Shown here: positions 13,688 to 32,492 of the stretch, piece after piece | Numbering within the stretch: position 1 is the stretch's first letter | Layout of the letters: every line of letters begins with the position of its first letter | Assembly (NCBI RefSeq): GCF_000337135.1 | Contig: NZ_AOIN01000092.1 | Span: forward strand, 5,032-37,523 | Direction of reading: 5' to 3' | Source of the DNA: Natrialba chahannaoensis JCM 10990 | GTDB taxonomy: Archaea; Halobacteriota; Halobacteria; Halobacteriales; Natrialbaceae | Length of the DNA: 32,492 nt | Notes under the pieces: model-generated | Told to the model about the DNA's origin: nothing | Database searches by the model: none | The model's input: only the letters and a program-made list of their open reading frames with translations | Program-made: the position numbers and the translations under genes

Positions 13688-14116
13688 CTATTCGACGTCG
13701 TCGTGCGTGAGCAGCGGCCGCTCGCGCTCGCCCGCTGGCGACTCGTAGGTAATCACCTCGAGTAAGTTCCCGTCCGGATCGAGAAAGTAGAACCCCTCGA
13801 ACTCGTCCCAGTCGTAGGGTCCTTGCTTCGGGAACTGTTCGTCGAGGGCGGCCAGCAGCCGCTCGTACTCCTCGCGGTCGGTCTCGAAGGCAATGTGTGC
13901 CTTGTCGAGGGGGTGGTCCAGTCTGCGCTCGTCCCAGCCGTCGGCGCGACCGGTTTCGGCCAGCGTGACGACGGTGTCGCCGACCTGGAACATGGCGTGT
14001 TCACCTTTGAAGTCCGAGGGCGGACGGCGAACCTCGAGTCCGAGTTCGTCGCGGTAGAACTCATAGCAGGGAGTGAGATTGTCGACGTCGATGTTGATGT
14101 GGTCGACTGCGTCCAT
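13688..14116 (-). CDS. VOC (glyoxalase/bleomycin-resistance) family protein
   Basis: A 142-residue single-chain VOC protein made of two beta-alpha-beta-beta-beta units. Seen: MDAVDHINIDVDNL at the start with candidate metal ligand H6, KAHIAFET with H74, and LDPDGNLLEVITY with E120, the usual His/His/Glu set of metal-dependent VOC enzymes. Members isomerise, cleave or add to C-C or C-X bonds of small molecules. The gene starts 11 bases after the stop of the third binding-protein-fold gene on the same strand, so it is probably the last member of that four-gene operon and may act on the same compound. The exact reaction is unknown. Confidence 0.88.
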   Translation of the reverse strand: MDAVDHINIDVDNLTPCYEFYRDELGLEVRRPPSDFKGEHAMFQVGDTVVTLAETGRADGWDERRLDHPLDKAHIAFETDREEYERLLAALDEQFPKQGPYDWDEFEGFYFLDPDGNLLEVITYESPAGERERPLLTHDDVE

Positions 14117-14127
14117 AGGAATCAGTC

Positions 14128-15156
14128 TCAGGTCCGTGGCTCCGTCTCCGCTGGCTTGCCAACGCGTTCTGCGTAGCTTCCGATTACCTCGTCGTCCGTG
14201 TCGATGAAGTCGTTCGTCCAGACCGCGTCGGGATCGATCTCACCCTCGAGGAGGTCCGTCTCCGCGAGCGTCTGCCCAAGCGTCCGCCAGCGCTCGCCGT
14301 CGTGGAGTCCCCAGCCCTGTTCTCGAGTGCGGTCGGTGAACTGGAGCTCGGTCGCCGCCGTTTCGAACTTTCGCTGTTCGACCGGGCGACTCCGCTCGAG
14401 TGTCGCGTTTCGTTCGACCAGCACGTCGATCGCCGCGTCGGGATCCGTCGTCGCAGCCGCCCAGCCGCAGGCCGTCGCTCGCAGGAACGAGCGGACCGTC
14501 TCGGGCTCCTCGCTGGCGAATTCGGGACTCGTGACGAGCATCATGCCGTAAACGCCGAGGTGATCTCCAATCGGGAGTTCGTCGGCCTGTCGGTCATGCT
14601 CGGCCTCGAGCTCGTAGCCGTTCGTCACGACACCGACAGCGGCGTCGACGCGCCCGTCGAGTAGTTTGTGCTGGACTCGGTGGTGGGTGTGGTCGTCGAC
14701 GCCGAGCAGATCGACCTCGTCGCTGATGCCCTCGTCCTCGAGTAGCTGCGCCGTCAGAATCCTCGTCTTGGTCGCAGACGGCGCGATGGTGCAGCCTCGC
14801 AGTTGGTCGGGGTCGGTCAGCGGCTCGCCGAACTCGTCCCGGAAGGTGTAGATCGCGGCCGGCGTCTTCCCGGTGACGGCGGCGACGGCGAGCGGGTCGA
14901 GGCCGCGGCTCTGAATCGAAAGGACGGCGCTCGCGCCAGCGAGGGCGAACTCGGCGCGTCCCTTCGCGGCCTGCTCGGCGGCGAAGGGCGAGCCGTGGCC
15001 TTCGACGAACCGCACGTCGAGTCCTTCGTCTTCGTAGAAGCCGCGGTCACGTGCGAGGAAGTAGGGAGCCTGGAAGCCGTTCGGTTCCCAGTTGAGCTGG
15101 AAGTCGACGGTGGTTGTGTTCGTCTCTGTGTCTGTGTCGGTGTCTGTATCCGTCAT
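14128..15156 (-). CDS. NMT1/THI5-like binding-protein-fold protein without signal peptide, gene C of operon
   Basis: A 342-residue protein with the two-lobed periplasmic-binding-protein fold (NMT1/THI5 type). Residues 1-17 are a Thr-Asp repeat (MTDTDTDTDTETNTTT), not a Tat or Sec signal, and there is no lipobox, so it should stay in the cytoplasm. The core begins FQLNWEPNGFQAPYFLARDR, very like the start of yeast THI5. However, the pyridoxal-phosphate Lys and the His consumed by THI5 fall on Ala residues (ALAGASAVL), and the CCCFC motif is absent, so a THI5-type suicide reaction is ruled out. Either it binds a ligand for an unknown partner, or it is an SBP-fold enzyme, as MqnA, MqnD and DszB are. 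It is joined to the gene before it by an ATGA overlap (15153-15156). Confidence 0.8.
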   Translation of the reverse strand: MTDTDTDTDTETNTTTVDFQLNWEPNGFQAPYFLARDRGFYEDEGLDVRFVEGHGSPFAAEQAAKGRAEFALAGASAVLSIQSRGLDPLAVAAVTGKTPAAIYTFRDEFGEPLTDPDQLRGCTIAPSATKTRILTAQLLEDEGISDEVDLLGVDDHTHHRVQHKLLDGRVDAAVGVVTNGYELEAEHDRQADELPIGDHLGVYGMMLVTSPEFASEEPETVRSFLRATACGWAAATTDPDAAIDVLVERNATLERSRPVEQRKFETAATELQFTDRTREQGWGLHDGERWRTLGQTLAETDLLEGEIDPDAVWTNDFIDTDDEVIGSYAERVGKPAETEPRT

Positions 15157-16232
15157 CGCGAGGACACCTCCAGTCGGAACAGGTCGTCCGGAATATGATC
15201 GACGCCGAGCGCCTCGGGGCCGGCGACGTCAAGCAGGTGGTCGAACAGCCGCTCCATCGCGTCGACTGTTTCCGCGTCCCAGTCGGTGACAACCATCTCC
15301 CGCCAGTGATCGCGAATGCCGTGGACGACAGTCGGTTCGTTCTCGTACATCAACTGCTCGCCGAGTTCGTCCCAGAGCTTGTCGTCCGTCTGTAACCGCT
15401 CGACGGCATCCGCGTAGGCGCGCTTGAACCCGCTGATGGCGTCGGGATTTTCGGCGAGGTAGTCTTCGCTCGTGAGGAACGTCGAGATCGGCAGCGTCTG
15501 CTCGACACCCGACAGCTGCTGGACGAGATCGGCCATCGGTACTGCCTCGCGGTAGGGGCCGGTCTCGACGATTTCGGGGATGATCTGCCAGAACTGAAGT
15601 GCCGCGTCGACGTCGCCGTCGTGCAGCATTTGGGTCAGCCCGACTTTCGAGCCCGCCTCGACCGACGTAGCCTCGTCCTCGGGGTCGAAGCCGTGGAACT
15701 CGCGGCAGGCAGCCCGCGTGAGAATCCAGTTCTTGTCGAGCCGGCGGACAACGCCAACCCGATGGCCGGGGAGGTCCGAAATGTCCTCGATCGGCGACTC
15801 CTCGGGGACGACGAGCCCGCCGACGGTCCGCCCATAGGGGTGAAACGCGACGATCGGCGCGCCGTTCGCCCGCTCGCGTGCCGTCGAGATGTAGTCGATG
15901 TCGATCAGGTCTGCATCCCCGCCGTGGAGTTTGGCCTCGACGGTTTCCAAGCCGTCCTTGAGTTCGTCCGAGACGAGTTCGACGTCGAGGTGGAAGTCGC
16001 GGTCGTGGTCGAAGCCGAACCGCTTGATGGTGTAGAGCATGTAGCGGGGGCTTCCGTTGTGCTCGAAGCGGGCGCGGAGGACAGGACGGTTGCCGTCACG
16101 GTCACCGTCGGTGTTGGCGCGGTCCGTGCGCTCCGGACTACCGTGCAACTCGTCTAGTGCCGCTTGCTGGGTCTCGATGTCCATTGCTGTGCCAGAGCCG
16201 GTATCAGTCTCGGTGTCGGTATCGGTACTCAT
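15153..16232 (-). CDS. NMT1-like binding-protein-fold protein without signal peptide, gene B of operon
   Basis: A 359-residue relative of the sulfonate/nitrate/pyrimidine-precursor binding proteins, again with no signal peptide or lipobox. After MSTDTDTETDTGSG and a charged linker to about residue 48, the fold begins RPVLRARFEHNG, with ADLIDIDYISTARERANGAP (about 107-126), LPGHRVGVVRRLDKNWILTR (about 157-176) and GDVDAALQFWQIIPEI (about 208-223) in the normal order. It is only distantly similar to its two neighbours, so the three are not recent duplicates. The ATG at 16230-16232 overlaps the stop of gene A as ATGA, which decides the start. Its own stop overlaps the start of gene C likewise. 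Tight coupling suggests equal amounts of all three proteins, perhaps one complex. Confidence 0.8.
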   Translation of the reverse strand: MSTDTDTETDTGSGTAMDIETQQAALDELHGSPERTDRANTDGDRDGNRPVLRARFEHNGSPRYMLYTIKRFGFDHDRDFHLDVELVSDELKDGLETVEAKLHGGDADLIDIDYISTARERANGAPIVAFHPYGRTVGGLVVPEESPIEDISDLPGHRVGVVRRLDKNWILTRAACREFHGFDPEDEATSVEAGSKVGLTQMLHDGDVDAALQFWQIIPEIVETGPYREAVPMADLVQQLSGVEQTLPISTFLTSEDYLAENPDAISGFKRAYADAVERLQTDDKLWDELGEQLMYENEPTVVHGIRDHWREMVVTDWDAETVDAMERLFDHLLDVAGPEALGVDHIPDDLFRLEVSSR

Positions 16233-17137
16233 TGTTTCGACGGTGCCACGATCGTCCCAATCTCCGCCTCGCTGTCGATCAACTCCCGATCCTTCATCCA
16301 CTCGAGTTCCCCGTCCAGTTCGGACGGCCCTGCGAACTCGGGTACCTCGTACTCGGGTACCCGAACTGACTCCCGGATCGCTTCGAGGTCGACGTCCACA
16401 AAGAGATCCGGCGCAACCTCAGCGTCGGACTCGAGCATCGCGAGATACTCGTCGCGGAACGCCTGCGGATCGTCGTTGATCGCATCTACAGCGCGCTCGT
16501 AGGCGCGCATGAACGCGTCGAGGTCGTCTTCGGCAAGGCTATCACTCGCTACGATGCCGATGTGATTCTCGAACTCGAGTACCCGCTGGAAGCCGAGGTG
16601 CTCGGCGAGGGTACTGTGGGGGTCGAGTAGCGTCACGGCGTCGACTTCGCCGTCCCGAAGCGCCTGCAGGCGGTTGGTCGGCATCCCGTGGTGGGCGAGT
16701 TCGATCTCGTCCGGATCGAGGTGCTCCTCGAGTGCTTTGACGGCGGTGTACTCTTGGCCGGTGCGGCGGTTGACGCCAACGGGGACGCCGGCGAGGTCGG
16801 CCGGCGACTCAATGTCGGTTTCTGGTCGCGTATAGAGCGTATAAGGGAGGTCGGCGAACGCCCCGTGGGCAACGATGGTCCCGTCGTCGAGCGACCAGGT
16901 TCGGCGCAGGCTCTCCCACTTACAGACCGGGTAGAGGTCCACGTCGTCGTCGCCGGTCAGCGTCCAGTCTGCCGGCACGTACTTCCAGTCGACCTGTCGC
17001 CGGTCTCGTTCGAAGAGGTCGACCGTGATCCCTTCCGCCTCGAAGTAGCCCTGTTCGGCTGCCACCCGTTGTGGCAGCATGAACGAAAAGGGCAGGTGAA
17101 AGACTCGGACCCCGCCGCTCGTGTCACTCTGTGCCAT
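16229..17137 (-). CDS. NMT1-like binding-protein-fold protein without signal peptide, gene A of operon
   Basis: The first gene of the four-gene unit encodes 302 residues from the ATG at 17135-17137. The start region reads MAQSDTSGGVRVFHLPFSFM, with no hydrophobic leader and no lipobox, then AAEQGYFEAEGITVDLFERD (the usual first lobe), ADLAGVPVGVNRRTGQEYTA (about 120-139), and GEVDAVTLLDPHSTLAEHLG (about 170-189). The conserved Trp and acidic residues around residues 60-90 (DVDLYPVCKWESLRR) are unusual for transporters. A longer upstream frame was rejected as non-coding. The promoter and a dyad at the ATG are described separately. With genes B and C it forms a three-way set of soluble binding-fold proteins with no permease or ATPase in the neighbourhood. 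The substrate is unknown. Confidence 0.8.
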   Translation of the reverse strand: MAQSDTSGGVRVFHLPFSFMLPQRVAAEQGYFEAEGITVDLFERDRRQVDWKYVPADWTLTGDDDVDLYPVCKWESLRRTWSLDDGTIVAHGAFADLPYTLYTRPETDIESPADLAGVPVGVNRRTGQEYTAVKALEEHLDPDEIELAHHGMPTNRLQALRDGEVDAVTLLDPHSTLAEHLGFQRVLEFENHIGIVASDSLAEDDLDAFMRAYERAVDAINDDPQAFRDEYLAMLESDAEVAPDLFVDVDLEAIRESVRVPEYEVPEFAGPSELDGELEWMKDRELIDSEAEIGTIVAPSKQ

Positions 17138-17175: not shown

Positions 17176-17279
17176 CTAGGAATCCTTTATACGCCCGTTG
17201 GCGGCGGATACAGTCATCAAATCCTGAAACAAGATTCACGTATCGGACCGGTGGAGAAACGGTACTGGTGACTGGTGGC

Positions 17280-17621
17280 ATGGACCACAGACAGACGGGC
17301 GATGTCGTCACCGAGGAGGTCGCAGACGGCGTGTTCCTCGGGACGCTCTCGATGGGCGAGCGCGCGAGCATGAAGTACTGGCGGATCGATCCGGGCGCGT
17401 CACTGCCGACACACGAACACGAGCACGAACAGATCGGCTACGTCCTCTCGGGAACCCTGACAGCAATCCTCGAGGACGAGGAAGTCCTGCTCGAGGAAGG
17501 CGACGCCTACAGGTTCTCGAGCAACGAGTATCACGGGGCTGAAAATCGAAGTGACGAACCAGCGGTGGGGCTGGGGGTGCTCGCACCGCCGCGGAATCGG
17601 CCGGAGTGGCGAGACCGGTAG
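17280..17621 (+). CDS. Cupin-domain protein
   Basis: A 113-residue single-domain cupin. The first cupin motif is clear: PTHEHEHEQIGYVLSGTLTA at about residues 42-61, with His, His, His and Glu in the metal-binding places. The second motif (YRFSSNEYHGAENRSDEP, about 79-96) supplies the last His. So it likely binds one divalent metal and either senses a small ligand or catalyses a simple dioxygenase or isomerase step. The ATG at 17280 has GGTGG three bases before it, one of the few Shine-Dalgarno-like sites in the window; a GTG four codons upstream is the alternative. It lies divergently from the binding-protein operon, with a shared control region of about 140 bases. A role with that operon is likely but inferred. 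Confidence 0.88.
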   Translation: MDHRQTGDVVTEEVADGVFLGTLSMGERASMKYWRIDPGASLPTHEHEHEQIGYVLSGTLTAILEDEEVLLEEGDAYRFSSNEYHGAENRSDEPAVGLGVLAPPRNRPEWRDR

Positions 17622-17649
17622 GAACGGGCGGGCGCTGAGGTATGCCAGC

Positions 17650-18567
17650 TCAGTCCGACTCCGGCCGTCGCCGTCGTTCGCGTTCGATCGTCGTCACGTA
17701 GATCCCTGCGAGCACGATTAGACCGCCGAGAACCGTAATTGTGTCCGGCACCTCCGCTAGCAGCCCCAGCGCCAGCAGCGTCGCCCCGACGGGTTCGCCG
17801 AGCCAGGCCACGCTGACGACGACCGACTCGAGGTGCTTGAGTACCCAGTTGACGATCGTGTGTCCGAAGATGCCGGGGCCGATCGCCATTCCGAGGAAGA
17901 GCAGCCACTCTCGCGGCGGGTAGGCGACGATATCGTGGCCCTGTACGCCGACGAGGAGCAAGAGCGTCACCGCACAGGCGGTATAGACGACGGTGACGTA
18001 GGGAAACAGCGAGACACGCTGGCGGATCGACCGACCAGCGAGCACGTATCCCGCGACGGTGATCGCACCCAGGATGGCAAGCGCGTTGCCGTACATCGTC
18101 GCATCGGAAATCGGTGCCTCGCCCGCATCGCCGAGCGACATCGCGGCCGCACCGACCATCGCGATGACGATCCCGATCACCGTCTCTCGATTGACCCGTT
18201 CGCCGAGGACGAGCGCCGCGCCGATGGCCACGAAGATCGGCTGGGTCTGGACGAGCGTCACGCTCGCAGCGACACTCGTGTGATTCAGGCTTTCAAACCA
18301 GGTTGCGAAATGGACCGCGAGCGCGATCCCGGCGACGACTGCGAAGCCGAGGTCGTTCCGTGAGAGCCGGCCGAACTCGTCACGGTACCAGTAGACGGCG
18401 ATGGGTGCGACGATTACGGTGGTAAAAAGCACGCGGTAGAAGGCCGCGACCGAACTCGGGGCGTGACTCCAGCGAACCAGAATGGCGCTGGTACTCGCGG
18501 CGAAGATAGCGAACGCGAGCGCGGCGTACGGTGTCACCTCGAGATCTGCCCTGTACACGTCGTCCAC
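17650..18567 (-). CDS. EamA-family (drug/metabolite) transporter
   Basis: A 305-residue integral membrane protein of the drug/metabolite transporter superfamily, with two EamA repeats of five helices each. About ten hydrophobic stretches are visible, from ALAFAIFAASTSAILVRW at the start to VLGGLIVLAGIYVTTI near the end. The mid-protein sequence FVAIGAALVLGERVNRETV and the second-repeat match VSVAWLGEPVGATLLALGLL are the typical end-of-repeat motifs. Such proteins export amino acids or other small metabolites. No ATG is available at the right place; the likely start is GTG at 18565-18567. It converges with the cupin gene, with 28 bases between the stops. Confidence 0.88.
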   Translation of the reverse strand: MDDVYRADLEVTPYAALAFAIFAASTSAILVRWSHAPSSVAAFYRVLFTTVIVAPIAVYWYRDEFGRLSRNDLGFAVVAGIALAVHFATWFESLNHTSVAASVTLVQTQPIFVAIGAALVLGERVNRETVIGIVIAMVGAAAMSLGDAGEAPISDATMYGNALAILGAITVAGYVLAGRSIRQRVSLFPYVTVVYTACAVTLLLLVGVQGHDIVAYPPREWLLFLGMAIGPGIFGHTIVNWVLKHLESVVVSVAWLGEPVGATLLALGLLAEVPDTITVLGGLIVLAGIYVTTIERERRRRPESD

Positions 18568-18648: not shown

Positions 18649-19278
18649 TCAGGACTCACCGGCGTCTTCGTCCGGAACAGTTCGGTAGATATCTGCGACA
18701 GTTCGGTCGATGTCGCCGAACCCGATGATGTCGTCTTGGGTGAGTTCCTCACCGTCCCACTCGTCTAGGTAGTCGACCGCATCTTCGCGGTCCGCGAACG
18801 GCCGCGGATTGAGCCCCATCGTCTCGCCGCTCACCGCGTCCTCGTTGGTGACGACGACGAAGTAAGCCTCGGTCGCGTCGATCAGGTCACCGGTTTCGAA
18901 ATCCGTCGTCCAGGCACCCTCCACAGGTGCGTCGACCGGCGGTGCGGCGACGTACGCGGCCATACAGCCGGGCGTGTCGAACACCGCGCCGTCGCCGTTC
19001 TCGTGAGCTAGCTGGCTCTGCCAGGCCGGGTAATCCGCCGGTGTCATGTTACATACCGCGCAGTTCTGGTCGTCCGTGAACTCGATCGGTTCACCGCCGT
19101 CGTGCTCGATTACCCGTGCCTCGTAGGGATGGCGGTCGTTGCCGTTTTCGTCCGGTTCATCGCTATCACCGAAGCCGCCAAGACAGCCGGCGAGCCCAAC
19201 GACCGTGCCCGCACCCACCGATCCGAGCACTGTCCGCCGAGCGACCGACTCGTCTGCACGGTCCGCGCGATCAGTCAT
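18649..19278 (-). CDS. nosL: NosL-like lipoprotein
   Basis: A 209-residue exported copper-handling lipoprotein of the NosL family, known as an accessory factor for nitrous-oxide reductase. The N-terminus holds a twin-arginine motif (VARRTVLGS, Arg 14-15) and a lipobox LAGC with C32. The mature part has CAVCNMTPADYPAWQSQL and DTPGCMAAYVAAP, the conserved NosL blocks, with Cys/Met likely to bind Cu(I). ATG at 19276-19278 gives the canonical signal. No nosZ, nosD, nosF or nosY is nearby, so this is an orphan copy, perhaps a general copper carrier. An acidic spacer follows the lipobox (FGDSDEPDENGND), as is common for haloarchaeal lipoproteins. Confidence 0.87.
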   Translation of the reverse strand: MTDRADRADESVARRTVLGSVGAGTVVGLAGCLGGFGDSDEPDENGNDRHPYEARVIEHDGGEPIEFTDDQNCAVCNMTPADYPAWQSQLAHENGDGAVFDTPGCMAAYVAAPPVDAPVEGAWTTDFETGDLIDATEAYFVVVTNEDAVSGETMGLNPRPFADREDAVDYLDEWDGEELTQDDIIGFGDIDRTVADIYRTVPDEDAGES

Positions 19279-19370
19279 ACGTGGCCGTACTCGTTGGGTG
19301 TTCAAAACGGCCGTGGTTCAACTCTCGATTTCTGCCACCCTCATACGACTCACATACCGCTACACCGGGC

Positions 19371-21756: not shown

Positions 21757-22785
21757 ATGGCACCAAGCCAGAACTTGCGTGGACGCGGACTGAGTCGACG
21801 ATCGGCAATCGCGACGATCGGAAGTATCGGCGCACTGGCGCTAGCTGGCTGTCTCGGTGGCGACGAGGACGGACTCTCCGGGACGATTCAGGCGTCCGGC
21901 TCCAACACGGTGGCACCGATCACGCAGATTGCCGCTGAGGACTTCGAGGCAGCGTTCTCCGGCGTCGGTGTCAACGTCGAACCAGAGGGGACCGGGGCTG
22001 GATTCCAGGAGTTCTGCCGAGCGAACTCTGCATTCCAGAGCGCGAGCCGAGAGATCACCGAGGAGGAGATCGATCTCTGTAGCGAGAACGACGTCGAGTA
22101 CACTCACTACACCGTCGGCCAGGATACGCTCGCAGTCGGTGTCAACGAGGACAACGACTGGTGCGAACAGATCACGCTCGACGAACTCAACCAGATCTGG
22201 GAGTTCGAATCAGATGTCCAGCAGTGGAGCGACGTTCGCGACGAGTGGCCGGACGAAGACATTGCATTGCACGCACGAGACTCCGCATCGGGGACGTTCG
22301 ACTACTTCACCGAGAATATCAACGGCGAGATGGGGAATATCCGCGACGACTACTCCGCGACGAGCCAGACTGACGAGATCTGGAACGCTGTCGCCGACAA
22401 TGAGTACGCCCTCGGCTGGGGTGGCGTCGGCCACCTTCGGAGCCTCCAGGAACAGGACGGTACCCTGAAAACCGTCGCGGTAGAGAGCGAGCTGGATGGG
22501 GACTTCTACCCACCCGAAGAGCAGTACATCGAAGGCGGGGAATACTCACCGCTCGCCCGTCCGCTCTTCTTCTACTTCAACCACGCCGAACTCGAGGAGA
22601 ATCCCGACCTGATCGCCTCGTTTGCGCGGTTCTACATCAACAACCAGCACGAGTTCGCGACGACAGTCGACTTTTACCGAGCGACCGACCAGGATATCGT
22701 CGACAACCACGATCAGCTCGATTCGGTGCTCGAATCGATCGGCGAAGATCCCGACGAGATCACGGTCGAACGCCAGGACCCCTGA
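21757..22785 (+). CDS. pstS: Phosphate ABC transporter substrate-binding lipoprotein
   Basis: PstS captures phosphate outside the cell for the PstCAB transporter. The 342-residue protein has a twin-arginine signal (GLSRRSAIATIG, Arg 14-15) and a lipobox LAGC (C32), so it should be Tat-exported and lipid-anchored. The mature protein starts with IQASGSNTVAPITQIAAEDF, the conserved phosphate-binding loop (SGS...), followed by FQSASREITEEE (about 104-115) and DSASGTFDYFTENI (about 173-186), all standard. The first gene of a seven-gene unit, 35 bases from pstC. Pst uptake is normally induced by phosphate shortage. Confidence 0.95.
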   Translation: MAPSQNLRGRGLSRRSAIATIGSIGALALAGCLGGDEDGLSGTIQASGSNTVAPITQIAAEDFEAAFSGVGVNVEPEGTGAGFQEFCRANSAFQSASREITEEEIDLCSENDVEYTHYTVGQDTLAVGVNEDNDWCEQITLDELNQIWEFESDVQQWSDVRDEWPDEDIALHARDSASGTFDYFTENINGEMGNIRDDYSATSQTDEIWNAVADNEYALGWGGVGHLRSLQEQDGTLKTVAVESELDGDFYPPEEQYIEGGEYSPLARPLFFYFNHAELEENPDLIASFARFYINNQHEFATTVDFYRATDQDIVDNHDQLDSVLESIGEDPDEITVERQDP

Positions 22786-22820
22786 ACTGACTGATTGACG
22801 ATCGCCTTTTCACTGCACTC

Positions 22821-23897
22821 ATGAGTACAGAGACACAATCCGGATCGGGAATTTCGGGCGACGATAGCCTCGAGGCCGCCCACGAGAAGAACAGGCGCGT
22901 TCGGCGAGTGCTGTTCGGCTGTGCGGCGGTCACCGTCGTGACCACGGTCGCCATATTCCTGGTCCTGTTCGACAACGCGGCCAGTTACTTCTTCGGCGCA
23001 CGAATCAGCGAGGTGTTATTCGATGGCGACTCGATCGCCCGAACGGTCACGTTCACCGAGTTCTTTACCGGAACCCGGTGGGCACCCGATCACGCGACGC
23101 CCGCACACGGCGTCTTGCCCATCGTCTGGGGAACCCTCGCGATTACGATCGGCGCTGGGCTGGTCTCGATTCCGATCGGGACGGCGACGGCGCTGTACCT
23201 CTCGGAGTACGCCTCGAGTGACACTCGAAATAGACTGAAACCCATCCTCGAGATACTCGCTGGGATTCCGACGATCGTCTACGGGTACTTCGCGGTCTCG
23301 TTTCTCACGCCGGTGCTCGTCGACGGCATCGCGACCTTCCTCGTCAATCCCGCAGGACGAGGACTCGACTCGGTGAGCCACCATGCGCCGGGTCTCCTTG
23401 AGCCGCTCGCGTCTGGCATGATGGGTGCCAGTGTCGGTCGATACAGCATGCTCGCCGGGATCCTGGTCGTCGGCACGATGACGATCCCGATGGTCTCCTC
23501 CATCAGTGAGGACGCTATGCAGGCGGTTCCTGACGACCTCAGAAACGGTGCGTACGCGCTCGGGGCGACGAAGTACCAGGTCTCGACGCGGATCGTCCTC
23601 CCTGCGGCGGTATCGGGTATCTTCGCCTCGTACATCCTCGCGCTCTCGCGGGCGATCGGCGAGACGATGGCCGTCACCATGGCCGCGGGATTCAACGCGA
23701 ACCTGACCGTGAACCCCTTCGACGAAATCATGACGATGACTGCCTATCTGGTCTCGATGGCTCGTGGCACGTCTGCGGTCGGCACCGTCCAGTACCAGAG
23801 TCTGTTCGCAGTCGGCCTGCTGTTGTTCCTGATGACGCTTACGATGAACCTGCTCAACGATCGACTGAAACAGCGATTCCAGGAGGAGTACCGATGA
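22821..23897 (+). CDS. pstC: Phosphate ABC transporter permease subunit
   Basis: One of the two membrane subunits forming the phosphate channel. The 358-residue protein has a polar N-terminal tail (MSTETQSGSGISGDDSLEAA), then a first helix at about 30-52 (VLFGCAAVTVVTTVAIFLVL) and five more. The inner-membrane permease EAA-type loop is seen around residues 238-260 (NGAYALGATKYQVSTRIVLP, then ALSRAIGETMAVTMAAG), which contacts PstB. A larger outside loop at about 65-100 (FDGDSIARTVTFTEFFTGT) follows the first helix. It ends with an ATGA overlap to pstA, so the two subunits are coupled in translation. Confidence 0.94.
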   Translation: MSTETQSGSGISGDDSLEAAHEKNRRVRRVLFGCAAVTVVTTVAIFLVLFDNAASYFFGARISEVLFDGDSIARTVTFTEFFTGTRWAPDHATPAHGVLPIVWGTLAITIGAGLVSIPIGTATALYLSEYASSDTRNRLKPILEILAGIPTIVYGYFAVSFLTPVLVDGIATFLVNPAGRGLDSVSHHAPGLLEPLASGMMGASVGRYSMLAGILVVGTMTIPMVSSISEDAMQAVPDDLRNGAYALGATKYQVSTRIVLPAAVSGIFASYILALSRAIGETMAVTMAAGFNANLTVNPFDEIMTMTAYLVSMARGTSAVGTVQYQSLFAVGLLLFLMTLTMNLLNDRLKQRFQEEYR

Positions 23898-24814
23898 GTA
23901 CGAAACGAGAAACTGACTTCCTCGCAGATGTCGACCTCGGTCGGGAGAAGCTACTTAACCGTCTCTTCTACGGCACGCTTGTCGTCGCGTCGTTGTTCGG
24001 ACTCGCCATGTTGGTCCTGCTACTCACCGACGTGCTCTGGGAAGCCAGTCAGGCGCTGACGAACTTCGACATCGACATCGGCAACTTCCTTACGGCCACG
24101 TCTTCTTCGCGTGCCGAACAGGCTGGTTTCGGGGCGTCGATCATCGCCTCGGTCTGGCTGATGGTGTTGACAGCCGTTCTGGCCTTCTTTATCGCGGTTG
24201 GCTGTGCGATCTACCTGGTCGAATACGCCCCAGAGAACCGCGTCACCCGTCTGATCGAGGCGAACCTCGCAAACCTCGCAGGCGTCCCCTCGATCGTCTA
24301 CGGGCTGCTCGTTCTGGCGCTGATCGTCAACGACGCCGGACTCGGATCGGTTATCCTGGCAGGTGCTATCGCCCTGGCGTTACTTATCGTGCCGATCATC
24401 ATCGTCGCCTCGATCGAGTCGATCCGGGCGGTGCCGAGCAGCGTCCGCGACGGCTCATACGCTATGGGCGCGACGAAGTGGCAGACGATCCGCCAGGTGG
24501 TGCTTCCGCAAGCGATGCCCGGCATCCTCACTGGAACCATTCTGGCACTCGCCCGCGCCGTCGGCGAGACGGCCCCGCTGATCATGGTCGGCACGATGTT
24601 GCACGCGACGCGATACCCCGATGGCCCATTTGCATCGTTCAGCGCGATGCCGACGCAAATCTACAACTGGACGTACCAGGCCGACCGGATGTTCAACGGG
24701 CTGGCGGCAGTCGGTATCGTCGTCTTGCTGTTGTTCTTGGTCGCGATGTACGCCCTCGCAGGCTATCTGCGGAAACGATACGAAACTGACGGCAGCTCGA
24801 TTAGCAATGTCTAG
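23894..24814 (+). CDS. pstA: Phosphate ABC transporter permease subunit
   Basis: The second channel subunit, 306 residues. Six membrane stretches are visible, starting [20 protein letters not shown] at about 31-50. The EAA loop is present at about 190-215 ([20 protein letters not shown], then [17 protein letters not shown]), matching PstC and the PstB contact site. The sequence [16 protein letters not shown] (about 133-148) is a family hallmark. It overlaps pstC by four bases upstream and pstB by eight bases downstream, so order and stoichiometry are fixed at translation. Nothing unusual was seen. Confidence 0.94.
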
Positions 24815-25694
24815 TAACACGTCAAACGAACAGGTGACTGACGAATCGGTCAACGAAACGGATGGCACATCGGACGGTGCGATCATCGAAACCGACATTA
24901 GCGTTGATCGCGGCTCAAGTCACACCACCGGACACACCGAGACGATCGTCCGTGCAGAGGGATTGGACGTCTACTACGGTGACGACCAGGCGCTCGACAA
25001 CGTCACAATCGAAATTCCAGAGCACCGCGTGACGGCCATGATCGGTCCCTCTGGCTGTGGCAAATCGACGTTCCTGCGGTCGATCAACCGGATGAACGAT
25101 CGAATACCGGCCGCACGCGTCGATGGCGGCCTCCACTTCCGCGGGAAGAACGTCTACGACGACGATGTCGACCCTGTCGCCCTGCGCCGAACGATCGGCC
25201 AGGTGTTCCAGTCGCCGAACCCGTTCCCGAAGTCGATCTACGACAACGTCGCCTACGGCCTGCGCGTCCAGGGAAAAGCCGACGGGATGGACCTCGATGC
25301 GGCAGTCGAACGCGCACTTCGTGGGGCCGCGCTGTGGGACGAAGTCAAGGACCAACTCAACGAGTCGGGCCTCGACCTCTCAGGCGGCCAGCAACAACGG
25401 CTCTGCATCGCCCGGGCGATCGCAACCGATCCCGAGGTCATCCTGATGGACGAGCCAACGTCGGCGCTCGACCCTGTCGCTGCCTCGAAGATTGAGGACC
25501 TCATCAACGAACTCGTCGACGAGTACACAGTCATCATCGTCACCCACAACATGCAGCAGGCGGCACGTATCTCCGACAAGACGGCCGTCTTCCTCACCGG
25601 CGGTGAACTCGTCGAGTTCGACGACACTGCGACGATTTTCGAGGATCCCGACGACGACCGTGTCGAGAATTACATTACCGGTAAGTTCGGATAA
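24807..25694 (+). CDS. pstB: Phosphate ABC transporter ATP-binding subunit
   Basis: The ATPase driving phosphate uptake, 295 residues. Residues 1-45 are a hydrophilic, acidic extension ([18 protein letters not shown]) not needed for the fold and typical of halophiles. The nucleotide-binding domain has Walker [10 protein letters not shown] (80-88), Q-loop [13 protein letters not shown] (135-147), signature LSGGQQQR (191-198), Walker [13 protein letters not shown] (212-223), and switch His in IVTHNMQQA (about 246-254). The start is the ATG at 24807-24809, inside the pstA end; a longer upstream frame is a shadow. phoU follows two bases after its stop. Confidence 0.95.
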
Positions 25695-25696
25695 CT

Positions 25697-26356
25697 ATGT
25701 CACGAGACGCCTACCAACAGCAACTGTACGAACTGCGTGAGAACATTCTCGAGATGAGTGACGTCGTCTGTCAACGGGTTCGGCGCGCGCTCGAGGCTTA
25801 CGAGACAGGTGACGACGCGCTCGCCGAGCGAGTGATCGAGGCCGACCACGAGATCAATCAGTTGTATCTCGACCTCGAGAGTGACTGCGTCGAATTGCTC
25901 GCCCTCCAGCAGCCGGTCGCGGGCGACCTGCGCTTCATCGCCTCGTCGTTCAAGATTATCACCGACCTTGAACGAGTCGGCGACCTTGCAGTGAACTTAG
26001 CGGAGTACGCGACCCAGTCAACCCACGAGCGCTACCCGGACGTCGACGTCAGCCATATCGGCACCGAGACGGTCCTGTTGCTCGAGGATGCGATACAGGC
26101 GTATGCGACAGACGATTCGGCAGCGACTCACGAGATCGCTGCGACAGATGACGAGATCGATGCGCTTTGCGAACGAGCCAGCCGGACCGTTGTTCAGGAG
26201 TTACTGACAGCTGAACCGTCGGACGAGCAGATTCTCGAAGACGTCTCGCGGATACTGCTTACGATCCGCGATCTGGAACGAATTGGCGATCACGCCGTCA
26301 ACGTTGCCGCGCGAACGCTGTACATGGTCGACAACGACGAGACGCTACTCTACTGA
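25697..26356 (+). CDS. phoU: Phosphate-signalling protein PhoU
   Basis: The canonical stand-alone PhoU: 219 residues, two three-helix bundles. Each bundle shows the metal-binding signature: ITDLERVGDLAVNLAE at about 95-110 and IRDLERIGDHAVNVAART at about 193-210. PhoU reports phosphate supply from the Pst transporter and restrains uptake. It sits between pstB and an AbrB-PhoU fusion gene: two bases after the pstB stop, and its own stop shares one base with the next start (TGATG). The acidic, all-helical sequence is normal for a halophile. How it divides labour with the AbrB-fused copies is unclear. Confidence 0.94.
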   Translation: MSRDAYQQQLYELRENILEMSDVVCQRVRRALEAYETGDDALAERVIEADHEINQLYLDLESDCVELLALQQPVAGDLRFIASSFKIITDLERVGDLAVNLAEYATQSTHERYPDVDVSHIGTETVLLLEDAIQAYATDDSAATHEIAATDDEIDALCERASRTVVQELLTAEPSDEQILEDVSRILLTIRDLERIGDHAVNVAARTLYMVDNDETLLY

Positions 26357-27390
26357 TGAGACACGAAGAGCTGACACTCGATTTGGCCGATCCCGTCGAA
26401 CGGAAGATCCAAATGGCCGGTAACTCGACGTTCGTCGTCTCACTGCCGAAGTCGTGGGCAGTCGAACAGGACCTCGAGCCGGGCATGTCGATGTACCTCT
26501 ATCCACACGAAGATCGACTGGTCGCTGCACCTGAAACCGCCTCTGTTCAGGAACGAACCGTGACGATCAACGCGGGCACCGCCGCTGGTGACATCGCGTT
26601 GCGCCGCGTTGCGGTTGCGTACAAGACCGGCTTCGACCGGATCACGGTCACCAATCTCGAGGAGGCTGATTCGCGGGCCCGGCGGATGATCGAACGTGCC
26701 ACAAGTCGGCTTATTGGCCTCACCATTCAGGAGGATACCGGTGACAGCCTGACGATCACGAACGTGCTCGATGCTAGCGACGTGTCTCTCCCCCAGACGA
26801 TCACCCAGGCACAGCAACTCGTCACCGAAATGAATACCGACGCGATCACAGCACTCGTCACCGGCGACGAAGACCTCGCTAACCGTGTGATCACCCGTGA
26901 CGACGATATCGATCGCCTATTTGCGTTCGTCTGCCGGGGGTTTCACCGTGGCCTCGAGGACGTCCACGAGGTAGAACAACTCGGCACCGACCGGGTCGCG
27001 GCGTTCCGCGAGTATCGCGTTGCTCGCAGTCTGGAGCGTATCGCTGACCACGCGGAACGTATTGCGGCGGTTGCGACACAGCAAGCAGCACCGCCCGAGG
27101 AGTCGTTCGCTGAGCAACTCGAGTTGGTCGCTGCTGACGTCCGTGCTGTTCTCGAGTTGGCGCTCGAGGGAGACACCGAGTCAGCATACGAAACAGCAAC
27201 CGCTGTTGAACCGAAGCTAGACGACCTTGATCAGTCCCTCTACAGCGGAACGGTCCCAAATGCATATCTGTACGGTGCAGTCATCAGGCGACTCCGGCAA
27301 ACGACGACGAACGGCCGTTTCATTGCCGACACGATGACTGAATCGACACTACTGGACTGCGGTCTTGCCGAAAGACGATCCCACTCATGA
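26356..27390 (+). CDS. AbrB-domain/PhoU-domain regulator, copy 3
   Basis: A 344-residue fusion of an AbrB-type DNA-binding hairpin (about 14-52: ERKIQMAGNSTFVVSLPKSW, DLEPGMSMYLYPHED) to PhoU repeats. The first PhoU repeat keeps the metal-binding pattern (RSLERIADHAERIAAVA, about 217-233); the second is degenerate (RRLRQTTTNGRFIADTM). It differs from copies 1 and 2 by an extra N-terminal helix (RHEELTLDLADPV). Being inside the pst operon, it probably feeds back on the operon promoter, where an inverted repeat is present, in answer to phosphate. It overlaps phoU by one base and the next gene by four (ATGA at 27387). Confidence 0.9.
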   Translation: MRHEELTLDLADPVERKIQMAGNSTFVVSLPKSWAVEQDLEPGMSMYLYPHEDRLVAAPETASVQERTVTINAGTAAGDIALRRVAVAYKTGFDRITVTNLEEADSRARRMIERATSRLIGLTIQEDTGDSLTITNVLDASDVSLPQTITQAQQLVTEMNTDAITALVTGDEDLANRVITRDDDIDRLFAFVCRGFHRGLEDVHEVEQLGTDRVAAFREYRVARSLERIADHAERIAAVATQQAAPPEESFAEQLELVAADVRAVLELALEGDTESAYETATAVEPKLDDLDQSLYSGTVPNAYLYGAVIRRLRQTTTNGRFIADTMTESTLLDCGLAERRSHS

Positions 27391-28883: not shown

Positions 28884-30059
28884 ATGGCGAAACGACAGTC
28901 AAACTCCGGTGAACGGTCCTCGAGACGAACATTCGTACTGGCGACCGGCGCGATCTGCACGTCGATTCTCGCGGGTTGTCTTGATGGAGACGACAGTGAA
29001 AATCAAGCGGGTGCGGGATTGGGTGGGGGTGGAGGCAGTGAACCCGATGACCCAATGCTCTCTGATTCGTTCGACCCGCAAAACCCCGACTGGGAGAACA
29101 ACAACTATCTCGGCAGCCAGATAGTCGAACACGACTTCATTCGGGGATCGGAGTTCGATCTCGAGCAGATGGGAGACCGCGGCCGGACCGAGGCAGTGTA
29201 CGGGCGGGAACCGGTCGAGCATCCTGACGACCCGTCGGAGTGGATCGATCCCGATCCGATCGTGTACGCCGACCTGCCACGAGAAGATAGCGAGCAGGCC
29301 TATGCCGATCAGCTTGAACCGATGATCGAAAAACTCGAGGCAGAGACGGGTCGGGACGTCGAATTTCAGACCATCGAGAGTTATGCGGCAGTTGTCGAGG
29401 GGATGCGCTCGGAACGGATCCATATCGCGAACTTCGCGACCGGCAACACGCCGTTCGGTGTGAACATGGCCGGCATGGTGCCGCTGGCGATGGGTGTCGC
29501 GGGGGACGGCGAGTTCGGATACCGGCTCCTTGCGATCACTCGCGCAGACATGGACGAGATCCAGAGCGTCTCGGACTTTACCGACTTCCGAGCGACACAC
29601 ACCGAAGAATCGTCGAACTCCGGGAATCAGGCACCGTCTGCGCTGTTCGACGAACACTTCGGGCTGACCAGAGGCGAGAACTACGATCCCGAGATGTCCG
29701 GAGGACACGAACAGTCCGTCCGGGGAATCGCATACGGGGACTACGACTGCGGCCCGATCTGTAGTACCTGTATGGAGCAAACGGTCGACGCCGTCGACAA
29801 CATCGACTGGGACGACTTCAAGGTCGTCTGGGCGGCCGATCCGTTCCCGACCGGACCGGTCGGCTACCGGTACAACCTCCACGAAGACATCATCCAGGCC
29901 ACCCGCGAGACCTTCCTGAACACGGACTGGTCGGGAACCGTGTTCGGCGAAGAGGCAGGTTACCCAACCTACGAGGAGGTTGACTACATGAACCATTGGC
30001 ACGACGTTATGGTCAATCAGCAGTACAATGGCGTCGAGTACGACGAAGCGAACCTCTAG
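28884..30059 (+). CDS. phnD: Phosphonate/phosphate ABC transporter substrate-binding lipoprotein
   Basis: PhnD-family binding protein for phosphonate, phosphite or phosphate, 391 residues. The signal is twin-arginine (SSRRTFVLATG, Arg 14-15) with a lipobox LAGC (C32), followed by an acidic and Gly-rich linker (AGAGLGGGGGSEPDD). The binding domain begins near residue 126 (PIVYADLPREDSEQAY), with the family's QTIESYAAVVEGMRSERIHI (about 160-179) and ANFATGNTPFG (about 180-190) regions. An unusual CGPICSTCMEQTVDAVD (about 287-303) with three Cys is present where other members have a binding loop. The ATG at 28884 was preferred to a GTG one codon earlier. phnC follows after 21 bases. No C-P lyase gene is in view, so the substrate may be phosphate or phosphite. 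Confidence 0.9.
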   Translation: MAKRQSNSGERSSRRTFVLATGAICTSILAGCLDGDDSENQAGAGLGGGGGSEPDDPMLSDSFDPQNPDWENNNYLGSQIVEHDFIRGSEFDLEQMGDRGRTEAVYGREPVEHPDDPSEWIDPDPIVYADLPREDSEQAYADQLEPMIEKLEAETGRDVEFQTIESYAAVVEGMRSERIHIANFATGNTPFGVNMAGMVPLAMGVAGDGEFGYRLLAITRADMDEIQSVSDFTDFRATHTEESSNSGNQAPSALFDEHFGLTRGENYDPEMSGGHEQSVRGIAYGDYDCGPICSTCMEQTVDAVDNIDWDDFKVVWAADPFPTGPVGYRYNLHEDIIQATRETFLNTDWSGTVFGEEAGYPTYEEVDYMNHWHDVMVNQQYNGVEYDEANL

Positions 30060-30080
30060 ACTACACGCACCCTGTTATCA

Positions 30081-30914
30081 ATGCTCGAAGTTACGAACTT
30101 GCGAAAAGTGTACCCGACCGGTGACGAAGCGTTGACCGGCGTCTCGACCGCGATCGAGGGGAACGAGATCGTCGCAATGATCGGGCCGAGCGGTGCCGGA
30201 AAGTCGACGTTCATTCGGTGTGTTAACAAATTGACCGAACCGACCGACGGCGAGGTCTCCCTCAACGGAACCGAACTCACTGCACTCGACAGCCGAGAGA
30301 TGAAAGCGGCACGCCGGAACATCGGAATGGTGTTCCAGGAGTACAACCTCGTCGAACGGCACACCGTCATGGAGAACGTTCTCTCCGGCCGACTCGGCTA
30401 CGTTTCGAACTGGGCGGCCTTGCGCCGGAAGTTCCCACAGGAAGACGTCGAACTGGCCTACGACATCCTCGAGACGGTCGGACTCGGCGGGATGGAGAAC
30501 AAACGGGCAGACGAACTCTCTGGTGGCCAGCGCCAGCGCGTCGGCATCGCCCGCGCCGTCGTCCAGGAGCCGACGATTTTGCTCGCCGACGAACCGACCA
30601 GCAGCCTCGACCCGGAAACCTCACACGCCGTGATGGAACTACTCACGGAGATCGCAGCCGAACGGAACATTCCCGTTCTGATCAACATCCACGAGGTCCA
30701 CCTGGCCGTCGAGTACGCCGATCGAATCCTCGGCTTACACGACGGCACGCTCGTCTTCGATGGCCCGACCACGGATCTCGACGAGAACGCGAAAGACGTC
30801 ATCTATCGCGGCGAAGCCATCGCAGGCGAGTCCTCGAGCAACTTCGTCGACGAGTCCGACACCGTCACTGACGACGCAGAGCGCACCGAACGATCCGCGA
30901 TCACGGGGGATTGA
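30081..30914 (+). CDS. phnC: Phosphonate/phosphate ABC transporter ATP-binding subunit
   Basis: The ATPase of the second phosphorus transporter, 277 residues. Seen: Walker [10 protein letters not shown] (35-43), Q-loop [16 protein letters not shown] (84-99), [11 protein letters not shown] (101-111), the PhnC-specific stretch, signature LSGGQRQR (146-153), Walker [13 protein letters not shown] (167-178), and switch His in [16 protein letters not shown] (201-216). The C-terminal 35 residues are acidic ([19 protein letters not shown]). The next gene, phnE, begins one base after its stop. The family match is clear, whereas substrate choice depends on PhnD. Confidence 0.93.
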
Positions 30915-30915
30915 G

Positions 30916-31749
30916 ATGGCGACCGGAGACAGACACGCCGACGTCGGTTCGACGGATCGGACATGGCGGCGACCGACTGCGTTCGGCAGTCACCGACTGA
31001 AGTGGGCTGTCTACGTCGGAGCGATGCTGTTCGTCCTGTGGTCACTCGTCTCCCTGCTGTCGGGCGTCAGTCTCGGCCGAGTGCTGACTGGCGTGAACAA
31101 CGGCGTCTTGCTCCTCGAGGCGATGGTACCGCCGAACACCGCGAGCGAAAACGTCGACCGAGTCGTCGGATATATGGGCGAAACGATCGCGATGGCGTTC
31201 GTCGCGACGTTTACTGGCGTCCTCATCTCGGTTCCGATCGCGTTTGGGGCGGCAGAGAACATTGCACCCCGGCCGATCTACTACCTGAATCGGGGGATCA
31301 TCAGCATCACGCGGGCGATCGACGAACTCATCATCGCCATCATCGCCGTGAAAGCCGTCGGTGTCGGGCCGCTGGCAGGTATCATCGCCATCAGCTACCT
31401 GACGATTGGCTTCTTCTCGAAGCTGTTCGCTGAGGATATCGAGGACATCGACATGGGGGCAAAAGAGGCCATCGACGCCGCCGGTGCCTCGCGATTCCAG
31501 ACGCTCGTCTACGCTGTCATCCCGCAGGTCGCACCGCGATTCATCGGGCTCACAGTATACCGCTGGGATATCAACATCCGTTCCTCGACGATCATTGGAA
31601 TCGTCGGCGCAGGTGGCATCGGGACGTTGCTTCTGCGAGCGTTCGAGCGCTACGAATTCGACTTCGCTGCGTTGATCCTCTTCTCGATCATCGCCGTCGT
31701 CCTCGTCGGTGAACTCTTCAGCGCGTACATCCGACGGAGGGTCCAGTAA
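30916..31749 (+). CDS. phnE: Phosphonate/phosphate ABC transporter permease, first copy
   Basis: A 277-residue membrane subunit of the PhnE type. Residues 1-30 are hydrophilic. A first helix at about 33-55 (WAVYVGAMLFVLWSLVSLL) and five others follow. The ABC-contact loop is present at about 185-205 (DMGAKEAIDAAGASRFQTLV), and VYRWDINIRSSTIIGIVGAG (about 213-232) is a PhnE signature. The end, LFSIIAVVLVGELFSAYIRR, is complete, in contrast to the second copy. It is coupled to the next phnE by TAATG. Two phnE genes in tandem probably form a heterodimeric channel. Confidence 0.92.
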   Translation: MATGDRHADVGSTDRTWRRPTAFGSHRLKWAVYVGAMLFVLWSLVSLLSGVSLGRVLTGVNNGVLLLEAMVPPNTASENVDRVVGYMGETIAMAFVATFTGVLISVPIAFGAAENIAPRPIYYLNRGIISITRAIDELIIAIIAVKAVGVGPLAGIIAISYLTIGFFSKLFAEDIEDIDMGAKEAIDAAGASRFQTLVYAVIPQVAPRFIGLTVYRWDINIRSSTIIGIVGAGGIGTLLLRAFERYEFDFAALILFSIIAVVLVGELFSAYIRRRVQ

Positions 31750-32492
31750 TGGGCGCTGAATCTGGTCGTCACTGGCAACGCTTCGAACCGCGACAGCGCG
31801 TTACACGGATCGCCGCGTTTCTCGTCGCGATGGGAACGGTCGTCGGCTCGTGGCTCTACATGGGGCTCGACACCCAGTACATCCGGACAGCACCCGCTGA
31901 ACTGATGGATCTCGCAGTCCGGATGTTCCCGCCGGAGTGGGCCTACACCCCGGAGATCGTCATGCCGCTGCTCGAGACGGTTCACATCGCCGTCGTTGGG
32001 ACGATCATCGCCGTCACCGCGTCGCTCCCTGTTGCTTTCCTTGCAGCCGAAAATACGACTCCCAATCGGGTGACGTACGCGGTTGGCAAGCTGATCGTCA
32101 CCGTTACGCGGTCAGTTCACGTCATTATCTGGGCGATGCTGTTCGTCGTCATGCTCGGCCCCGGCGCGTTCGCCGGGATGGTCGCGATCGCCGTCCGATC
32201 GATCGGCTTCGTCGCCAAACTGCTGGGCGAAGAGATCGAGGAGATCGAGATCGACCAGGTCGAGGCGATCCGCGCGACCGGTGCCTCCACGGTTCAGGTC
32301 CTGCTCTACAGCGTTCTCCCCCAGATCAAGCCCGCGCTGGTCGGGATCGGCGTCTATCGCTGGGACATCAATGTCCGCAGCGCGACGATCCTCGGCGCGG
32401 TCGGTGCCGGCGGGATCGGCGTCCAGCTGTTCAACGCCGTCGACCCCGGTCGTGGCGACGTCGCTCGGTTTGTTGGTGGGCACTGTACCGTC
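31749..32492 (+). CDS. phnE: Phosphonate/phosphate ABC transporter permease, second copy, 3' end outside or damaged
   Basis: Starts at ATG 31749-31751, sharing a base with the stop of the first copy, and is open to the window end (248 codons). Seen: a first helix AAFLVAMGTVVGSWLYMGL (about 22-40), PLLETVHIAVVGTIIAVTAS (about 74-93), the contact loop IDQVEAIRATGASTVQVLLY (about 167-186) and the signature GVYRWDINVRSATILGAVGA (about 200-219). After LFNAVD the frame turns to PGRGDVARFVGGHCTV, which is not the hydrophobic last helix expected. From about 32452 another frame reads VATSLGLLVGTV, which is. So a frameshift or a sequence error near 32440-32455 is possible. Confidence 0.82.
   Translation, partial: MGAESGRHWQRFEPRQRVTRIAAFLVAMGTVVGSWLYMGLDTQYIRTAPAELMDLAVRMFPPEWAYTPEIVMPLLETVHIAVVGTIIAVTASLPVAFLAAENTTPNRVTYAVGKLIVTVTRSVHVIIWAMLFVVMLGPGAFAGMVAIAVRSIGFVAKLLGEEIEEIEIDQVEAIRATGASTVQVLLYSVLPQIKPALVGIGVYRWDINVRSATILGAVGAGGIGVQLFNAVDPGRGDVARFVGGHCTV

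Follow-up and report, generated by a model that had tools for sequence, protein, structure and literature searches.

A conserved cytoplasmic trio of binding-protein-fold proteins accompanies a PQQ-type quinoprotein dehydrogenase in haloarchaea

What do three genes for binding-protein-like proteins do in an operon without a transporter? The question is raised by a stretch of 32,492 nucleotides from Natrialba chahannaoensis JCM 10990 (the window). A first-pass annotation of this DNA had described three mutually divergent NMT1-fold genes (A, B and C), followed by a VOC-family gene, and had proposed a cytoplasmic enzyme system that acts on an unknown small molecule. When we re-derived the genes from the window, coordinates and orientation were the same as in that annotation (Table 1), as were the ATGA overlaps at the A/B and B/C junctions and the gap of 11 bases between C and the VOC gene. 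All three proteins exceeded the cut-off of the Pfam NMT1 family (PF09084; A 45.8, B 43.4 and C 106 bits), as the proposed fold had implied. A comparison of 43 orthologous loci revealed that the order of a divergent cupin gene and A-B-C, with the VOC gene nearby, is kept across haloarchaeal genera and families, which excludes chance. The VOC protein conserves His6, His74 and the Glu of a typical metal site (40 distinct orthologues), while the cupin, for which a GTG start at 17268 is possible besides the ATG at 17280, conserves H.H..EQ and a further His. Judged by these residues, both look like metalloenzymes. Genes for oxidoreductases (AOR, FDH and molybdenum hydroxylase) recur near the trio, in sets that differ between genomes; in about ten loci AOR sits between the cupin and VOC genes.

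Table 1. Features of the locus in window coordinates.
Feature	Position	Strand	Basis
Gene A, NMT1-fold protein, 302 aa	16229..17137	minus	Pfam PF09084 45.8 bits; 43 orthologues; predicted SBP-fold model
Gene B, PqqT-like cytoplasmic protein, 359 aa	15153..16232	minus	phmmer versus 9b1u; 48 orthologues
Asp166-Lys167-Asn168 codons of B	15729..15737	minus	Alignment; PDB numbering offset; PMC12828617
Gene C, THI5/ThiY-like cytoplasmic protein, 342 aa	14128..15156	minus	Pfam PF09084 106 bits; PDB profile matches
VOC-family gene, 142 aa	13688..14116	minus	Pfam PF00903; 40 distinct orthologues
Cupin gene, divergent	17280..17621	plus	Pfam PF07883; 42 loci
EamA-cupin junction	17622..17649	n/a	Comparison with sister genomes L089 and L090
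DMT/EamA permease gene	17650-18567		28 bases past the cupin gene

Public records annotate the trio proteins as ABC transporter substrate-binding proteins. If they were normal components of an ABC transporter with its other genes at a distant site, this annotation and the NMT1 fold would be explained. However, A, B and C of the window start without a signal peptide, and neither a Tat motif nor a lipobox was found; the same is true of all 132 orthologues (43 A, 48 B and 41 C). The genuine exported binding proteins of the window, at 21757 and 28884, do have the Tat and lipobox starts ascribed to them. Neither a permease nor an ATPase gene of the ABC type adjoins the trio at 39 of the 43 loci. At the other four (L081, L082, L087 and L109) a complete ABC importer is present, but it comes with its own C-like lipoprotein. 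Taken together, we regard the trio as extremely unlikely to consist of ordinary ABC binding proteins. Homologues are thus neither always found beside ABC genes nor always equipped with signals, and the earlier statement that the operon lacks a transporter holds for ABC genes next to the trio in the window and for most homologous loci. It does not hold for the four importer loci, nor for the DMT/EamA permease gene near the cupin gene.

Which molecule is involved? Among solved structures the closest relative of B is PqqT (9b1u, phmmer E 1.7e-30), the periplasmic PQQ-binding protein of Methylorubrum extorquens, whose structures 9B1U, 9B1V and 9OOZ contain PQQ. Residues 65-352 of B align to 18-297 of 9b1u, and the homology thus spans about 290 residues, the whole domain. 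According to this alignment and a PDB numbering offset of 27 (9b1u/9ooz), Lys167 of B, part of an LDKNW motif, corresponds to K142 of PqqT, whose exchange for Asp affects how metal is bound at the PQQ site (PMC12828617). This lysine is invariant across 46 distinct B orthologues, and the position of PqqT Tyr161 is occupied by Phe214 in an invariant QFW motif. In two segments B differs from bacterial PqqT-like proteins, with NGSPRY for GTVNWE and GSKV.L for GAPPL, so that its ligand may not be PQQ itself. The bacterial relatives of B that we inspected are exported SBPs encoded in PQQ-dehydrogenase or pqq clusters; L037-L039 have a signal peptide, in contrast to the 48 B sequences. An AF2 model of B built from an 8-sequence alignment reached a pLDDT of 37 and was left out of the analysis.

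Sequence searches gave no specific kinship of A or C with PqqT. The orthologue alignment of A revealed the invariant motifs FHLPfSF.LPQ, YP.CKWES and N.RTGQEYT. Other haloarchaea have A2, a cytosolic relative about 30% identical to A, whose distribution does not follow that of the quinoprotein described below, and homology of A by itself is therefore no pointer to PQQ.

B was present in 40 of 292 genomes. A quinoprotein alcohol dehydrogenase was detected in 39 of these 40 compared with 11 of the 252 genomes without B (Fisher test over related and hence not independent genomes, p 3e-37). Counted by genus, the quinoprotein occurs in 12 of 13 with B versus 6 of 64 without, and within genus g2 it accompanies the trio in 9 of 9 genomes while 0 of the 5 checked trio-less genomes have it. 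The exception is genome G051, which carries the trio and has no detectable quinoprotein. In 21 genomes the dehydrogenase gene and B are no more than 12 kb apart. In the same genus as the window genome, two sister genomes have genes for a blue-copper protein (domain identified), the quinoprotein, c5 and c10 at the EamA-cupin junction (L089, 3724-8918; L090, 11032-16210; EamA 84% identical). The quinoprotein of the window genome itself is unlinked to the trio, 42% identical to the query and without the Cys-Cys pair. That the operon is almost confined to genomes with a PQQ-type dehydrogenase suggests that the trio probably supplies its cofactor, by an undescribed route. With the kinship of B to PqqT, the small molecule of the first-pass annotation is narrowed to what is probably a quinone cofactor or its precursor; the conserved cytoplasmic non-transport system with VOC and cupin partners stands as proposed, and the enzyme-system idea is supported in part.

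The quinoproteins keep GGE[YF]G and WDYD, most of them also NPGP and Cys-Cys. Since WDYD is the lanthanide-type ligand motif of the dehydrogenase and the bacterial relatives of B are encoded in PQQ-dehydrogenase clusters, one could imagine that the ligand of the trio is a lanthanide or metal chelate that this enzyme needs. We consider this highly improbable: a lanmodulin-like metal-binding protein was not noticed and, to our knowledge, PqqT binds metal only through PQQ.

In other genomes the dehydrogenase gene adjoins the genes of an ABC importer whose binding protein resembles C; it is a lipoprotein to which C is about 40% identical. This importer was found in all 11 quinoprotein genomes without the trio, in 24 of the 44 with it and in none of 20 controls. 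Each of the 54 dehydrogenase genomes has the trio, the importer or both, and in genus g83 one genome has the trio only and another the importer only. Trio and importer are therefore interchangeable across quinoprotein genomes. The same pattern would be expected if both supplied the substrate of the dehydrogenase. Closest to the original enzyme idea, A-B-C, VOC and cupin would then be enzymes that make or process a compound oxidised by the quinoprotein, AOR, FDH or molybdenum hydroxylase, and the importer would take up that same compound. Such a role in substrate supply or catabolism would agree with the recurrent oxidoreductase genes, the exchange of trio and importer, the metalloenzyme-like VOC and cupin and the existence of SBP-fold enzymes. 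We nevertheless think it rather unlikely: the nearest solved relative of B binds PQQ, bacterial relatives lie in PQQ clusters, and the oxidoreductase neighbours vary whereas the quinoprotein is nearly constant.

If a quinone cofactor is supplied, where could it come from? PqqC gave no match in the 40 trio genomes (positive control L039, 386 bits), and for PqqE, in the 25 trio genomes tested, only radical-SAM matches below the cut-off were obtained, with controls alike. A source of PQQ for archaeal quinoproteins did not turn up in the searchable literature, nor did relevant work on haloarchaea with PQQ or lanthanides. In our view the chances are evenly balanced that the trio is a cytoplasmic module supplying a PQQ-type quinone cofactor or precursor to the haloarchaeal quinoprotein alcohol dehydrogenase. 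The computed support consists of the conservation, the lack of signals, the homology of B to PqqT with the pocket lysine, the co-occurrence with the quinoprotein, the interchange with the importer and the lack of a PqqC match. A-B-C would act together with VOC and cupin in the cytoplasm and without transport. B would bind the quinone in the manner of PqqT, C would be the cytoplasmic counterpart of the importer's binding protein, with the importer meeting the same need elsewhere, and A, VOC and cupin would probably carry out chemistry on the compound. This compound may be PQQ or PQQ-like, the module may make or convert rather than only carry it, and loading may take place in the cytoplasm. The quinoproteins themselves carry no signals. 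In some genomes, however, a partner protein encoded next to them begins in a Tat-like way, and a blue-copper gene follows, which makes it conceivable that the quinoprotein is preloaded and then Tat-exported as a complex.

A plain carrier, binding PQQ from some importer and delivering it without synthesis, would be in line with the binding-protein fold of all three proteins and with the resemblance of B to a PQQ-binding protein. Yet genomes with the importer alone manage the same type of quinoprotein, those with the trio alone are without that importer, and VOC and cupin are retained alongside the trio; we judge this reading improbable. The more far-reaching form of cofactor supply, a PqqA-E-independent cytoplasmic route of partly SBP-fold enzymes by which A-B-C, VOC and cupin make PQQ or a PQQ-like quinone that haloarchaea lacking the route import, is a tentative possibility.

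The conserved cytoplasmic trio system is not described in searchable papers; the annotation of many haloarchaeal genes of this kind goes no further than stray ABC binding proteins. Because the module follows the distribution of a lanthanide-type quinoprotein and takes turns with an importer, the use and source of PQQ in these archaea become testable, including a possible second biosynthetic route. If our proposal is true, the small set of binding-protein-fold proteins acting inside the cell gains members.

How does the trio compare with known systems? The PqqABCDE pathway would yield the same cofactor, but the trio genomes are without a PqqC match. The predicted fold of A aligns with the SBP-fold enzymes MqnA, MqnD and DszB (Z about 13-15.5), yet the scores for plain binding proteins are higher (Z 17-21); as the model is only moderate (pLDDT 73; four other models stayed below 46), we take these matches as SBP fold and no more. 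Among solved structures C is nearest in sequence to the FAMP-binding SBP ThiY (3ix1) and a thiamin SBP of Clostridium difficile (4nmy), both exported ABC components, whereas C is cytoplasmic. With THI5/NMT1, the HMP-P synthase (profile search against the PDB, E 6e-16), C shares fold, sequence, an Asn-Trp pair and the nature of a soluble cytoplasmic SBP-fold protein. However, opposite the catalytic residues Lys62 and His66 of THI5, C has Ala73 and Ala77, in agreement with the replacement reported before, and the CCCFC segment is missing, the aligned region having no cysteine cluster. This tells only that C is no THI5-type HMP synthase. A thiamin-precursor role, suggested by the THI5 and ThiY similarity, was rejected in view of these residues and of annotated plasmid neighbourhoods without thiamin genes. 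Bacterial PqqT-like proteins are exported, have ABC permease and ATPase genes alongside and differ from B in the N-terminal and GAPPL-region segments; B has no signal and no adjoining ABC transporter here. B and PqqT are alike in their domain-wide homology, the LDKNW lysine, an aromatic residue at the Tyr161 position and a genomic link to quinoprotein dehydrogenases.

The first-pass annotation had described, from the sequence, an operon of three signal-less genes of binding-protein fold followed by a VOC gene, read as a cytoplasmic enzyme system. Its description of the operon proved accurate in the coordinates, in the ATGA overlaps that join A, B and C, and in their Pfam NMT1 matches. Sequence alignment also bore out that Lys62 and His66 of THI5 are replaced by alanine in C. 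One nuance has to be added: an EamA-type permease gene adjoins the cupin gene. All three proteins (the trio) score far beneath the NCBIfam transporter cut-offs, and it is hardly credible that they are plain transporter parts. The two transport clusters at the far end of the window, with normal Tat lipoproteins, are apparently unrelated to the trio.

Coordinates of the features in the window and in compared loci (L numbers)
Feature	Location	Strand	Remark
Gene A	window 16229-17137	-	Pfam NMT1 match
Gene B	window 15153-16232	-	Pfam NMT1 match
Gene C	window 14128-15156	-	Pfam NMT1 match
VOC gene	window 13688-14116	-	11 bases behind C
Cupin gene	window, start ATG 17280 or GTG 17268, end 17621		divergent, upstream of A
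EamA permease	window 17650-18567		next to trio
NosL-like lipoprotein gene	window 18649-19305		next to trio
Pst/PhoU-type cluster	window 21757-27390
Phosphonate-type ABC transporter	window 28884-32492
Second A-like family	L105, around 9-14 kb
Quinoprotein alcohol dehydrogenase	L040:12488-14200	-	lanthanide-type WDYD; no own signal peptide
Quinoprotein alcohol dehydrogenase	L121:7466-9376	-	lanthanide-type WDYD; no own signal peptide
Family of about 300 aa	L121:9373-10311	-
Family of about 300 aa	L078:3100-4017	-
HTH-NMT1 regulator	L108:15821-17086	-
HTH-NMT1 regulator	L132:5192-6478	-
AOR	L097:11128-12822	-
AOR, or in Halococcus molybdenum hydroxylase large subunit	L045:4271-6610	+

Within the order, 27 of 195 genomes have a B-type gene at E<=0.001, and 20 of these 27 still do at E<=1e-30; within the class, the search at E<=1e-10 detected one in 40 of 292 genomes. 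Across 43 readable loci, the window included, the order cupin<- A-> B-> C-> recurs, with the VOC gene right behind C or beyond the cupin gene; the exceptions are L091 and L092, where C was not recovered, L079, where VOC was not recovered, and L096, where the cupin fell under the cut-off. One genus carries a duplicated B in the tandem A-B-B'-C (L079, L080, L083, L117, L033), and the copy adjoining A is 54-60% identical to the B of the window. A signal peptide is absent from the start of every sequence compared for A (43), B (48) and C (41). Invariant motifs are FHLPfSF.LPQ, YP.CKWES and N.RTGQEYT in A; RARFEhNGSPRy, PYGrTVGgL, RRlDKNWIL.RAA and QFW in B; and FQLNWEPNGFQ, VEGhGSP, PSATKTRIL and THHRV in C. 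Such clustered columns are of the kind that lines a binding cleft, and since the proteins are also signal-less, selection on A, B and C seems to be strong and to act on them as cytoplasmic proteins. The VOC orthologues conserve His, His and Glu, the cupin orthologues H.H..EQ and a His. Structure prediction of A was of moderate quality. In other haloarchaea a second cytosolic A-like family without signal (about 30% identity; L098, L100, L101, L104-L107) shares an operon with genes for a permease, an ABC ATPase and an NMT1_2 binding protein that has a Tat lipobox; plasmids of Geminicoccaceae, Mesorhizobium, Aminobacter and Nostoc carry distant A relatives.

Many trio loci also encode a 570-aa protein (Pfam PQQ PF01011, 187 bits) that matches PDB chains of quinoprotein alcohol dehydrogenases and scores 372 bits against NCBIfam TIGR03075, under the 480-bit cut-off. 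It keeps GGE[YF]G and WDYD, the D-x-D of which we take to be the lanthanide signature, and in most copies NPGP and vicinal Cys-Cys. At E<=1e-30 this quinoprotein was present in 39 of 40 B genomes versus 11 of 252 B-less genomes of the class sample (Fisher p 3e-37, related genomes not being independent), and per genus in 12 of 13 with B versus 6 of 64 without (p 6e-9). In genus g2 all nine sampled B genomes had it; at E<=1e-8 it was found in none of the five B-less g2 genomes checked and none of three B-less g3 genomes. The distance from B to the quinoprotein gene is at most 12 kb in 21 genomes; one trio genome (G051) has no quinoprotein. In L089 and L090, from the window's own genus, a block of blue-copper protein, quinoprotein, its partner c5, and c10 stands between EamA and cupin, a gap of only 28 bases in the window; in the window's genome a more distantly related quinoprotein is encoded, with a c5 homologue, on another contig. 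In L141 and L142 the quinoprotein gene, too, has homologues of the window's EamA permease and NosL-like lipoprotein next to it. Proteins of about 300 aa that form a family without Pfam or NCBIfam match are nearly always encoded together with the quinoprotein, and only some of them have a Tat-like start.

Whether or not the trio is present, many quinoprotein genes adjoin an ABC importer (two permeases and an ATPase); its lipoprotein shares 37-42% identity with C, and in most cases the importer comes with a regulator in which an HTH and an NMT1 domain are fused. Such one-component regulators (MarR/Lrs14-like N terminus), also found beside the trio, would sense a cytosolic ligand. Among 75 chosen genomes, which are not a random sample, the importer protein (E<1e-100, well apart from C at 1e-52 to 1e-64) occurred in 11 of 11 trio-less quinoprotein genomes versus 24 of 44 trio genomes (Fisher p 0.003), and in none of 20 lacking both trio and quinoprotein. 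All 54 quinoprotein genomes had trio, importer or both; within genus g83 the two are split between genomes, the trio alone in G303 and the importer alone in G237. Two alternative ways to get one compound would be expected to give this pattern. As the importer-only genomes possess a quinoprotein of the same kind, its assembly does not in general depend on the trio, and a pure carrier or insertion role is improbable; as that importer is missing from trio-only genomes, the trio should itself provide the compound.

Most likely, at about even chances, trio, VOC and cupin are a cytoplasmic supply module for a quinone cofactor. B would hold the quinone, C would handle what the importer's binding protein handles, or something related to it, and chemistry would be left to A, VOC and cupin. 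The cytoplasmic setting fits the quinoproteins, which have no signals of their own. Because c5 has a Tat-like start (window's genome and L093) and a blue-copper gene lies behind the quinoprotein, loading inside the cell and export as a folded complex may be envisaged. Supply of substrate to the dehydrogenase is rather unlikely, though the strongest of the alternatives: with AOR (aldehyde ferredoxin oxidoreductase), FDH and molybdenum hydroxylase as neighbours, the module could be part of a pathway of alcohol oxidation instead of serving the cofactor. In about ten loci AOR separates cupin from VOC, a place taken in Halococcus by a molybdenum hydroxylase large subunit. Metal handling by the trio is very improbable.

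PqqC was found in none of the 40 trio genomes, with a model that recognises known PqqC at 386 bits, and PqqE matches never exceeded the cut-off in the trio genomes searched. If the compound of the supply module is PQQ, it would be made by another route or brought by an unknown importer. No paper on the trio system was found among the open-access papers searched.

The best solved match of B is PqqT, the PQQ-binding protein of Methylorubrum (9b1u/9ooz, E 1.7e-30 and 3.2e-30; 'PqqT with PQQ bound' and 'PqqT Y161W variant with PQQ bound'; 9b1v is titled 'PqqT with PQQ and Gd3+ bound'). According to the review PMC12828617, which also covers the structures with PQQ, the Kd of PqqT for PQQ is 50 nM, and the K142D variant has altered La3+ and Ca2+ affinity. 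With an offset of 27 between the 9b1u and 9ooz numbering, K142 is the lysine of LDKNW, which is invariant in B (K167) and also kept in bacterial relatives, and Tyr161 corresponds to Phe214 of B. Because two other segments of B are unlike those of the bacterial PqqT-like relatives, PQQ itself is a likely but not a certain ligand. The bacterial relatives that we examined belong to clusters of PQQ-dehydrogenase or pqq genes, carry signal peptides and have ABC partners.
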